Source of the DNA: Symbiodinium natans
Lineage: Eukaryota > Sar > Dinophyceae > Suessiales > Symbiodiniaceae
Assembly: GCA_905221605.1 (NCBI GenBank)
Contig: CAJNDS010002125.1
Coordinates: 327,809 to 391,808, forward strand
Length of the DNA stretch: 64,000 bases
Reading direction: 5' to 3'
The notes under the pieces were generated by a model, which made no database searches, was not told the origin of the DNA, and saw only the letters and a program-made list of their open reading frames with translations. Positions 44,511 through 53,347 of the stretch are shown piece after piece (the first letter of the stretch is position 1; every line of letters begins with the position of its first letter). Both the position numbers and the translations under genes were made by a program.

Positions 44511-44797
44511 TGCGGAGCTGCAACTGGTATTGTAGAAAGGAGTTAGTGTTGGGTGTTGGAAGGGTCAACGTGCCCGGAAACCCTTTATGGCTCAAGATGG
44601 CCAAGAGCCGTCAGCTTTTGTTGAAAAAGTACGTACGCCTGGGGTTGGGTTTAACGGGTTGGAGTAGTCCCGTCCCTTCTCCCTTATCCTGTCCCCTTAG
44701 GGGTGGGTGTTCTTGTTTCTGGTTCGATCTGGGAAATCCATATAGGCGACTGTTGAGGGTTGGTTTCTTTCCCTGTTCCCTTTCGGTTGCCCCCGTA
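44511..44797 (+). repeat. 5' LTR
   Basis: Starts TGCGGAGCTGC and ends TTGCCCCCGTA (5'-TG...TA-3' rather than TG...CA). It matches 53063-53347 apart from G/A (CAACGTGCCC against CAACGTACCC) and an extra CC after GGAGTAGT. It should contain the promoter and the start of R; neither can be placed by eye. Confidence 0.92.
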
Positions 44798-44810
44798 GGT
44801 TATGAGCCCA
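44798..44810 (+). promoter_or_regulatory. Primer-binding site for half tRNA-iMet
   Basis: GGTTATGAGCCCA starts at the base after the LTR. It is complementary to the anticodon stem-loop of eukaryotic initiator tRNA-Met (GGGCUCAUAACC), not to a tRNA 3' end. Copia of Drosophila and Ty5 of yeast prime from the same internal part of this tRNA, using a fragment cut in the anticodon arm. Confidence 0.8.
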
Positions 44811-44864
44811 AATTAGGTTCCCTGCGGTTGAGTGTTCTCTTCAGATCTTTGGGATCAAGAAGCA

Positions 44865-45731
44865 ATGCCTTCTCCCAAGCGATGGCTCCAACCTTCCTCG
44901 GATGGTGGACAGAATGGTGGAGCTGGAAATGGTGCAGCTGAGTCTCTGGGTGAAAGGGCGGTGCTGGAAGAGGTGATGCCTGGCGCTGAAGAACATCTGG
45001 AAGAAGCCTTGGTTGCAGAAGACCCCAACGTGGGTATGAATCCCAATGTGGATATGGTTAGCAATGCTGAAGCTGAAGGACGTGCTGTCTCTGTATCGCC
45101 AAAGCCTGGTGAAAAAAGGAACTGGGATGCGACTGGTGGTATAGACCGTGAAATGGAGGTGACTGTTTTACGCGTGTTGCAAAAACATGGGTATCAGCCG
45201 TCGACTTCGACTTCGGGCCGAATGGTAGACCAAGGGTCTCAGACCGATCTGATTGGAGAAGTGCTGCAAGCGGCCAGGAGGCCTCTGAACAAGATTAAAG
45301 GGGATCCCTCTGCGAGTTCCCAAGGTGGTGGAAGCGGTTACGAACAGAAGGGTGCGGACAGCTTTGAAGCTGCACCAGCTGCTGAATACGCCATGGGGGA
45401 GGAGGAGATCTTACAGATGGAGGCTGAAAGGTTGCGCCAGTTGTCAGAAGAAGAGGATGAGATGCGTCAAGTCTCTGAAAGGGATGGTTTTCGGAAAGAT
45501 GAGCATCTGATCAAAGCGTGCGATGGGACAACGTGGGAATGGCACTTCCATGAAGATGGGAGACAATATTACTACTGCCTGGATACGCAGGAAAGCAAGT
45601 GGACGTTGCCGGTTGTAGGTGAAAAGATGAAGGGTCTCCTTCGGGCAATGAGCTGGAAATGGAGGCTGCACTGGGTTCTTCATCCTCTACTCCGACGCCT
45701 GAGTCTACGAGGGCATTCCAGGGTAGTGTAA
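44865..45731 (+). CDS. LTR element ORF1: acidic protein with WW domain
   Basis: Starts MPSPKRWLQPSSDG (an in-frame ATG upstream at 44832 is less likely). It is acidic and of low complexity, with a possible coiled segment (EEILQMEAERLRQLSEEEDE). Near its end is a WW-like domain, WEWHFHEDGRQYYYCLDTQE then SKWTLP, with both Trp, the YYY core and the final Pro. WW domains bind Pro-rich ligands. The frame closes at 45731, but the reading frame at -1 has been open since 45623 and carries ORF2, so ORF1 and ORF2 probably form one product by frameshift, splicing or an indel. After about 45623 the ORF1 translation turns basic and unlike the rest, supporting a switch there. Confidence 0.65.
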   Translation: MPSPKRWLQPSSDGGQNGGAGNGAAESLGERAVLEEVMPGAEEHLEEALVAEDPNVGMNPNVDMVSNAEAEGRAVSVSPKPGEKRNWDATGGIDREMEVTVLRVLQKHGYQPSTSTSGRMVDQGSQTDLIGEVLQAARRPLNKIKGDPSASSQGGGSGYEQKGADSFEAAPAAEYAMGEEEILQMEAERLRQLSEEEDEMRQVSERDGFRKDEHLIKACDGTTWEWHFHEDGRQYYYCLDTQESKWTLPVVGEKMKGLLRAMSWKWRLHWVLHPLLRRLSLRGHSRVV

Positions 45732-51940: not shown

Positions 51941-52692
51941 AGTTCAATGGAGATACTGACCAGATGGATAGAGAATGGGTTTCGTGGACCACTGGTATGC
52001 TGTCCGTGCTGGAACTTCACGAAGTAGTGAAGTCGTATGATGTTTCGCTCGCGGAGGTGGAAGAATGGGTCAATGACCTGAGGATATGGTACGAGCGAGC
52101 CAATTTGGGAGAAGAGAAAGATTCCAAAAGGGGCAAAAAGAGGTCCCTAGAAAGGGAGTCCAGCAAGGATATTCCTGCAGAAAAAGAAGTGGTTGAGACT
52201 TCGGAGACGGAGGTTGCCGTTGAGGAGGAGATGAAAAAGGTCAAAAAGAAGAGGAAAGCTGCAGCTATCGAAGATCCTTACACTCTTCTGGTTCCAAAGC
52301 CGAAGAAGATGCCGGCGAACATTGAGAGGGGTGGATCATCATCCAATGCGGTGGTTTCTGCAGGGGAAAAAGCCTCGAAAATGCGCACAAAGTCAAATGT
52401 CGGTGGAAAGACGAAGAAGAAGGAGAAAAGTCAGAGTCCCAAAAAGGAAGAGGTGGTAATGGTGCAAGGTCCTGAGGAAAAGGATCGTCCATCTGATGTG
52501 GATGCACCAGCGTCTACCACTGTGAATGCAGAGCTGGGTCAATCTTGCCAAGCGATTGAGGACGCAAAGAGAGAAGGATTGGTATCCTCAATTCAAAGGT
52601 GCGTGCAGGATCCTGTTCTTACAGTTTCGGACCTGGAGTATATTCTGCTGCAACTTCACCTCAGAATTGCCAACAATCGGAAAAAGAAGTGA
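51841..52692 (+). CDS. LTR element ORF3: Lys-rich protein with gag-like start
   Basis: Open from 51841 in the -1 frame relative to ORF2, overlapping its end by 100 nt, with no ATG before residue about 43, so it may be reached by frameshift or splicing. The start, LLKFNGDTDQMDREWVSWTT and LSVLELHEVVKSYDV, recalls the F-G-...-W-...-M-...-L pattern at the beginning of copia-type gag (UBN2-like), a weak match. A Lys/Arg-rich centre with likely nuclear-localisation clusters (KRGKKRSLE; KKVKKKRKAA) follows. It ends with a helical segment, LTVSDLEYILLQLHLRIANN, and KKK. Function not known. Confidence 0.55.
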   Translation, partial: YQNDGTVDGGDFISVQWQARFGSSRGGPLFKLLKFNGDTDQMDREWVSWTTGMLSVLELHEVVKSYDVSLAEVEEWVNDLRIWYERANLGEEKDSKRGKKRSLERESSKDIPAEKEVVETSETEVAVEEEMKKVKKKRKAAAIEDPYTLLVPKPKKMPANIERGGSSSNAVVSAGEKASKMRTKSNVGGKTKKKEKSQSPKKEEVVMVQGPEEKDRPSDVDAPASTTVNAELGQSCQAIEDAKREGLVSSIQRCVQDPVLTVSDLEYILLQLHLRIANNRKKK

Positions 52693-53050
52693 TTGGATGG
52701 TATGGATGAAGGGATGGTTTTTCTCTTTCTGGAGACAGGTGCGCTGGAACAGCCAATGTGCTGACAATGTGGTGGTTACTATTAAGGGTATGGAAATCCC
52801 TGATAGTAGAAGTCAGTAGTTTTTCGCGTAGCGAAGACCACGGTTTGTGGTGAAGAAGGCCGAAGAGTCTTCAATGATAAGAGGATCATGGTGGAAAAAG
52901 ATTCTCTGTGGTTAGTGGGTTAGCCAATGAGCTATAATTTCGTCCTGGATGACGTAAAACCATATTGTGCATTTCAAGCAGCTGGCTGCTGCCTTAATGG
53001 CAGTTTTTGGCCAAAAGATCTGCACCTCCAATGTGTCCTAGGAAATCCTA

Positions 53051-53062
53051 GGACAGGGGGAG
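53051..53062 (+). promoter_or_regulatory. Polypurine tract
   Basis: GGACAGGGGGAG lies immediately before the 3' LTR TG, the expected place for the plus-strand primer of an LTR retrotransposon. One C interrupts it. Confidence 0.7.
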
Positions 53063-53347
53063 TGCGGAGCTGCAACTGGTATTGTAGAAAGGAGTTAGTG
53101 TTGGGTGTTGGAAGGGTCAACGTACCCGGAAACCCTTTATGGCTCAAGATGGCCAAGAGCCGTCAGCTTTTGTTGAAAAAGTACGTACGCCTGGGGTTGG
53201 GTTTAACGGGTTGGAGTAGTCGTCCCTTCTCCCTTATCCTGTCCCCTTAGGGGTGGGTGTTCTTGTTTCTGGTTCGATCTGGGAAATCCATATAGGCGAC
53301 TGTTGAGGGTTGGTTTCTTTCCCTGTTCCCTTTCGGTTGCCCCCGTA
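53063..53347 (+). repeat. 3' LTR
   Basis: A 285-bp copy of 44511-44797 ending CCCCCGTA; see the 5' LTR for differences. It is followed directly by CCCTAAACTCACTTGGG, the right edge of the invaded CCCTAAA tract. Confidence 0.92.

Follow-up and report, generated by a model that had tools for sequence, protein, structure and literature searches.

The stretch of DNA analysed here, a 64,000-nucleotide window from the dinoflagellate Symbiodinium natans, contains at positions 44511-53347 a young long terminal repeat (LTR) retrotransposon of 8.8 kb. Its relatives in the genome insert into telomere-like CCCTAAA/TTTAGGG arrays, and its coding region specifies one long protein with MLLE and CCCH zinc finger domains, which has been under purifying selection during the amplification of the family. 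Judging from sequence comparisons, we consider it probable that this is a non-autonomous element which is mobilised by a Copia lineage and encodes an RNA-binding protein acting in cis. An earlier note, made from the letters of the window alone (hereafter the original prediction), had described an LTR element carrying a multi-domain RNA-binding protein instead of pol; the targeting of telomere-like repeats, which is the most striking property of the element, was absent from it.

Structure and copies of the element

The LTRs, target-site duplication, primer-binding site and polypurine tract claimed by the original prediction are each located at the expected place. The 5' LTR (287 bp, TGCGG...CCGTA; 44511..44797, plus strand) and the 3' LTR (285 bp; 53063..53347, plus strand) are direct terminal repeats distinguished by one substitution and by 2 nt in length, in accordance with the young age and nearly identical LTRs claimed for the element. 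They are flanked by the target-site duplication CCCTA, with no strand assigned: the left one (44506..44510) is the end of a CCCTAAA array at 44475-44510, and the right one (53348..53352) is followed by AACTCA, where the array stops. The primer-binding site (44798..44811, plus strand) is the complement of nucleotides 27-40, in the anticodon arm, of a tRNA-Met that is presumably of the initiator type, given its T-loop GATCGA. All 14 nt pair with the tRNA-Met of this genome, while 1,000 shuffles reach at most 11 nt. A pattern including the T-arm gave 8 matches, the single one fetched being a tRNA-Met; the tRNA pattern CTGGGCTCATAACCC was abandoned, none of its 8 matches being a tRNA. The polypurine tract ACAGGGGGAG (53053..53062, plus strand) abuts the 3' LTR and is invariant in all 21 copies that were read.

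These copies come from a search of 759 Mb in 2,543 contigs, in which the best 40 of 1,526 candidates for a 490-bp query from the 5' end and the best 40 of 812 for a 363-bp query from the 3' end were scored. Twenty full-length copies, picked because both of their ends were among the scored matches, were fetched, and both LTRs are present in every one of them. Hence, the further copies that the original prediction had proposed to look for exist, and the family is multi-copy within its own genome. Including the window copy, the two LTRs of an element differ by no substitution in 7 copies, by one in 8 and by two in 6. The alignment comprises the window copy and 19 fetched copies (L038 was left out because of an inversion), with pairwise identities of 96.2-99.5%. 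In one further copy (G000:C866:28807-43082), 14 kb separate the LTRs, and a single piece of the open reading frame (ORF) matches twice within them, which suggests a tandem or nested insertion.

One long frame without pol domains

The original prediction listed three separate ORFs. Stop-free stretches across copies reveal instead a single frame of about 2,610 codons to which all three belong and which is split in the window copy by two frameshifts; copy L029 has this frame without any frameshift but with one in-frame stop. All pieces lie on the plus strand: an N-terminal one (ORF1, 44865..45731, with the first ATG at 44865), the main piece (ORF2, 2093 aa, 45659..51940), which the frameshifts divide from its neighbours, and a C-terminal one with a Lys-rich tail (ORF3, 51925..52692). 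The long intact open frame originally described is a property of other copies and not of the window copy. Of 582 candidates for a 126-residue piece of the ORF the best 150 were scored, and 12 of these lie in open frames of at least 2,600 codons. In three cases the frame exceeds the typical length (2,679-3,367 codons); ORF2 is thus not degenerate in every other copy. A search of the protein collection turned up two full-length homologues, of 2,606 and 2,609 aa.

In the window protein and in both homologues, models of MLLE and of the CCCH family exceed the Pfam cut-offs. The MLLE domain, which is of the type found at the C-terminus of poly(A)-binding protein (PABP) and had not been named originally, lies at 47225..47413 (plus strand, as are all domains given here). 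The first cluster of three CCCH zinc fingers lies at 47765..48265; its 12 zinc ligands are 90-100% conserved, compared with a mean of 77% over a 720-residue piece, in 38 diverged homologues out of 52 compared, with each ligand covered by 22-30 of them. A second cluster of three CCCH-type fingers, recognised by eye and with approximate limits at 51455..51688, is without one zinc ligand of its third finger in the window copy. Several CCCH modules of the predicted domain list are significant, while the WW domain (45534-45611; 15 bits against a cut-off of 26.9, E 0.027) and the S1-like RNA-binding domain (46847..47026; 19.1 bits against 22, E 0.0018, as a separate piece) stay below the Pfam cut-off. 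No SAM domain was detected at E 10 in separate pieces, and the name is used here as a label for a conserved stretch of 70 residues. PDB sequences give weak profile matches that agree with the MLLE, WW and S1 assignments: to PABP at E 0.015-0.95, to a WW protein at E 0.021 and, over 22 residues, to an S1 protein at E 0.05. A segment that looks globular by eye, at approximately 49799..50595, is an orphan, unmatched in Pfam and among PDB sequences; as residues 1400-1760 of the L029 frame it has 42 homologues, six of which carry precomputed Pfam domains, all of them CCCH-related.

As claimed originally, there is no protease, integrase or reverse transcriptase among the Pfam sequence-profile matches of the three window ORFs, the two full-length homologues and six pieces, and two PDB sequence searches gave no sign of a hidden pol either. 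By these profiles, the window element is a non-autonomous, pol-less LTR element.

Sister elements with a Copia gag-pol frame

A pattern combining the LTR end and the primer site occurs at 578 places in the genome, with several leader variants among the 100 listed. Two sister elements, L058 and L060, have the same LTR start, LTR termini and primer site and abut TTTAGGG arrays, and they encode a different protein. In L060, this protein has a CCHC-like knuckle that comes after a CCCH-like motif, each of them below cut-off; because of such motifs and of its place ahead of a reverse transcriptase we call it gag. The sister elements shown at C8, C80 and C90 have the identical 10 purine-tract bases ahead of their 3' LTR. 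When the best 118 of 2,269 candidates for the sister gag were scored, 19 fell into open frames of 3,081-3,091 codons (8 of 3,087 and 8 of 3,091), and one frame is longer (4,564 codons). A 901-base piece fetched at C1961 (L061) contains a Copia reverse transcriptase (RVT_2) with the motif YVDD, at 39.7 bits against a cut-off of 31.6. That gag and RVT_2 share one 3,087-codon frame at this place is deduced from their coordinates, the fetched pieces covering gag and the reverse transcriptase; on this basis the sister belongs to Ty1/copia. Such an element measures about 9.6-9.7 kb from LTR to LTR, and its gag-pol frame has about 3,090 codons.

The spacing of the LTRs agrees with two kinds of element. 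Among 86 of 100 listed LTR matches, compared with the 100 of a second list, 41 have a partner at 8.4-8.7 kb, 27 at 9.4-9.8 kb and 14 at other distances, and 4 are unpaired. Scored matches of the window ORF fall into 20 members of the short class and none of the long class (62 of the 150 lie on those contigs), those of the sister gag into one member of the short class and nine of the long class (50 of the 118), where members without a scored match are uninformative either way. From these comparisons, the window ORF looks like a replacement of gag-pol, and the Copia gag-pol sisters are the likely helper. The original prediction had named two findings that would bear on this point, pol in place of the coding region in other copies and autonomous relatives sharing the LTR. 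The first is borne out in part: relatives with related LTRs and the same primer site and target do carry gag-pol; they share the ends of the LTR, while its inner parts have diverged. Another candidate helper, the abundant Copia family L057, was dropped, since no LTR copy or telomere array could be seen by eye within 2 kb. When the best 150 of 2,237 RVT_2 candidates were scored, the sister copies that had been read at C8, C90 and C1961 were not among the matches listed.

The relationship between the two proteins permits a different interpretation, namely that the window protein is itself the gag of the helper lineage in a much diverged form and the element a TR-GAG type with an enlarged gag. 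A similar CCCH finger is present in both proteins (BLASTP E 5e-06 over 41 residues and 1e-05 over 27), and the orphan segment has no other name. However, a profile comparison aligns only 29 columns at this finger (probability 39%, E 0.0003), where the first gag row, L058, is frame-broken, which makes the comparison less than optimal. In the 2,606-aa homologue, the CCHC knuckle has no counterpart at E 1. We regard this interpretation as improbable.

Selection on the long-frame protein

Across the 20 aligned copies, dN/dS is 0.48 in the true frame and 5 new stops have arisen, compared with 45.5 expected. The two shifted-frame controls give dN/dS values of 1.57 and 1.31 and close to the expected numbers of stops (26 vs 27.3 and 35 vs 32.4). 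Constraint is seen both in singletons (dN/dS 0.55; 3 stops vs 19.7 expected) and in shared variants (0.43; 2 vs 25.8). The long-frame protein was therefore under purifying selection during amplification, as the original prediction had supposed.

These figures also bear on the possibility that the protein is a passenger, captured by recombination from a host gene for a CCCH/MLLE protein and conserved merely as a remnant of selection on that gene. Cellular RNA-binding proteins contain MLLE and CCCH domains, and the coding region occupies the gag-pol place of the sister elements; Bs1 of maize is a known LTR element with a captured host gene. Yet the constraint on changes that appeared within the family itself, even on those seen in a single copy, is not what a passenger would show. 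Moreover – and this is a weak point – there is no clear progenitor among the matches listed (at least 13, at least 39, and 42 homologues, all without protein names). We judge host capture to be unlikely, slightly more so than descent from gag.

Insertion into one register of telomere-like repeats

All 21 copies lie within or at the edge of CCCTAAA/TTTAGGG arrays, and all have telomere-like target duplications: 10 copies show CCCTA and 8 show TAGGG, and the other 3 have telomere-like variants, in one case with unequal sides. Thus, the two sides are identical in 20 copies and consist of exact CCCTA or TAGGG in 18, among them all 7 copies without any LTR difference. Because CCCTA and TAGGG are reverse complements, both orientations use one physical site. 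The same emerges from a genome-wide count of 430 LTR starts that match exactly over 25 nt and have a base other than T at -10; the count pools both LTR sub-types and includes solo LTRs without distinction. A purine tract precedes 223 of these starts, a pentamer of the form YMSKR precedes 201, and neither precedes 6; the form YMSKR covers 32 pentamers, of which CCCTA and TAGGG are two. Accordingly, 201 of 207 5' flanks fit the form, compared with 2.9% of window positions. Letters are shown for 34 of the starts, of which 17 are 5' flanks; all 17 look telomere-like, and 14 are exactly so over 10 nt, compared with 0.18% of window positions.

Telomere-like arrays are common in this DNA. Telomere-like 12-mers cover 2.1% of the window, with 158 near-matches against 0.2 in shuffles, yet this coverage is far below 97%. 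Interstitial arrays of CCCTAAA/TTTAGGG are found in the window at 28281-28473, 36592-36724, 37303-37550 and 60859-61016, among others. In a comparison of 300-bp flanks, the first 20 matches listed are 77-88% identical over 52-142 bp, as telomere-like repeats predict, and show no sign of segmental duplication. The family thus inserts at a fixed position of telomeric repeats, and we hold register-specific targeting of telomere-like repeats to be extremely likely. That survival or assembly bias created the association, insertions elsewhere having been lost or repeat-rich contigs being over-represented, seems very improbable: interstitial arrays are indeed frequent, and CCCTAAACCCTATG followed 21 bases on by a non-T base occurs at 5,809 places, but a bias would leave the register unfixed, whereas a single physical site is used in two orientations, and the 7 copies without LTR difference are too young for much selection.

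A model of mobilisation and the points that weigh against it

According to the model that we prefer, the enzymes of the Copia sister, which shares LTR ends, tRNA-Met primer site and purine tract with the window element, could copy the RNA of the latter. Because it combines the shared primer site and purine tract with a reverse transcriptase, the sister is the natural helper, and we infer that mobilisation by this Copia lineage is very probable. Integration would proceed by a 5-bp staggered cut in one register of the CCCTAAA/TTTAGGG array, duplicating CCCTA. The specificity most likely resides in the helper integrase or in a factor bound by it; since the sister has the same target without the CCCH protein, that protein would not be needed for targeting.

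In the window element, the place of gag-pol would be taken by the MLLE/CCCH frame. If all functions were supplied by the helper in trans, so long a frame should decay; it did not drift freely. The amino-acid sequence is conserved although the enzymes would act in trans, and hence the protein probably favours its own RNA. A cis action of some kind appears fairly likely, and might concern the stability or translation of the encoding RNA or its entry into helper particles. CCCH fingers bind RNA and MLLE contacts translation or poly(A) factors, which suggests stability, translation or packaging. The narrower assignment to packaging or RNA stability is possible but rather doubtful. As a possibility somewhat less likely than not, one may picture a two-part telomere-repeat system, in which a Copia integrase complex reads TTTAGGG in register, a non-autonomous partner has exchanged gag-pol for a giant cis-acting MLLE/CCCH protein that competes for helper particles, and the interstitial arrays would serve as a safe harbour.

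A number of observations weigh against this model. The helper is known from pieces with gag and the reverse transcriptase, and its integrase is putative. Of the 27 long-class elements, 18 are without a scored gag match, including those at C71, C161, C180 and C222, which have the LTR start of the window, TGCGGAGCTGCAAC. The LTRs of L058 and L060 are 220-221 bp long, compared with 287 bp in the window, and their inner parts have diverged; between the window protein and the sister gag, a weak CCCH similarity is the sole link. When the best 150 of 2,237 RVT_2 candidates were scored, the sister copies that had been read at C8, C90 and C1961 were not among the matches listed.

Further points concern the protein and its copies. 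Constraint is regionally uneven and depends on whether values are scaled by the frame-wide or the local synonymous rate, with small variant counts per region. The Trp-rich and MLLE stretch has a dN/dS of 0.81 by the frame-wide and 0.48 by the local rate, the first CCCH cluster 0.72 and 0.34. The strongest constraint by the frame-wide rate, 0.22, is found in the 70-residue stretch labelled SAM (0.20 locally; 5 nonsynonymous variants), and residues 1681-1965 of the L029 frame have values of 0.29 and 0.43. The N-terminal 430 residues and residues 1081-1425 look nearly free, with local values of 0.90 and 0.84. All 21 copies read are disrupted, mostly at differing places: at least one frame-breaking indel is present in 19 of the 20 aligned copies (the remaining one, L029, having its single stop instead); the mean per copy is 3.2, and 59 of the 61 different indels are confined to one copy each. 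In L038 an internal inversion of about 3 kb has left the LTRs and the target duplication intact. Because stops from point mutations are few, some of the indels may be assembly errors. The case for intactness rests on the open-frame lengths of scored matches, and no single copy is named as working.

Other features of the window

A heptamer array at 56104-56354 consists of 36 units of TTGGGGG with 97% matches; it is G-rich, in contrast to the TTTAGGG repeats found in other parts of the window. On the minus strand, two similar frames at 16138-19287 and 21536-24358 encode helicase C-terminal and helicase-associated (HA) domains and are apparently a tandem duplication. Also on the minus strand, a frame at 41968-42726 has a phosphonate-binding periplasmic-type domain, and its neighbour at 38086-41826 encodes an ephrin-receptor-like repeat protein with a weak TRP-like match below cut-off; the two frames, which together span 38086-42726, are possibly one gene with an intron.

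Comparison with known systems

Non-autonomous LTR elements and Copia elements are familiar, as are non-LTR elements specific for telomere repeats. In the open-licence literature, represented mostly by titles and the beginnings of abstracts, we found neither an LTR element with a base-level telomere-repeat target nor an element of this protein architecture.

The helper agrees with Ty1/copia in its RVT_2 domain, its 5-bp duplication and its long gag-pol frame. Its priming, too, is of the copia kind and uses the anticodon arm within initiator tRNA-Met. It differs in strongly favouring a single register of a telomere-like heptamer array and in having a gag in which a CCCH-like motif lies ahead of the CCHC-like knuckle, both motifs scoring below cut-off.

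Among non-autonomous elements, LARDs have a long internal region without coding capacity, TRIMs are short, and TR-GAGs have an ORF homologous to gag. Like all three, the window element lacks pol, has LTRs, a primer site and a purine tract, and would need a helper, but it retains the conserved MLLE/CCCH frame, in which gag is unrecognisable. Unlike a LARD, it has coding capacity, as dN/dS and the deficit of stops indicate; at 8.8 kb it is not a TRIM; and the alignment to gag that a TR-GAG would call for is limited to one CCCH finger. With PABP the protein shares an MLLE domain above the Pfam cut-off, but no RRM is among its Pfam matches, and its MLLE lies amid S1-like and CCCH modules.

The SART and TRAS elements of insects are without LTRs and use a different integration chemistry. 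They are described as telomere-repeat-specific non-LTR retrotransposons in PMC7265360. Insertion into telomeric repeats is common to them and the window family, but the latter has LTRs, 5-bp duplications in both orientations and arrays inside contigs, and no endonuclease domain of the non-LTR kind is among the Pfam matches.

A parallel in targeting is Ty5 of yeast, an LTR element that prefers telomeric regions and is led to silent chromatin by a contact between integrase and Sir4 (PMC4700185). According to the same source, LTR retrotransposons, where their targeting is known, are directed by contacts of integrase with cell factors and not by DNA sequence. The window family is likewise an LTR element with a telomeric preference but, unlike Ty5, keeps an exact base register. 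With 201 of 207 flanks and 18 of 21 exact duplications, it would make integration at a precise sequence by a retroviral-type integrase open to study, and it bears on the abundance of interstitial telomere arrays in this genome. It also poses the question of why 2,610 codons are kept under selection in a non-autonomous element whose enzymes come from outside, to which cis action of the protein on its own RNA would be the simplest answer.

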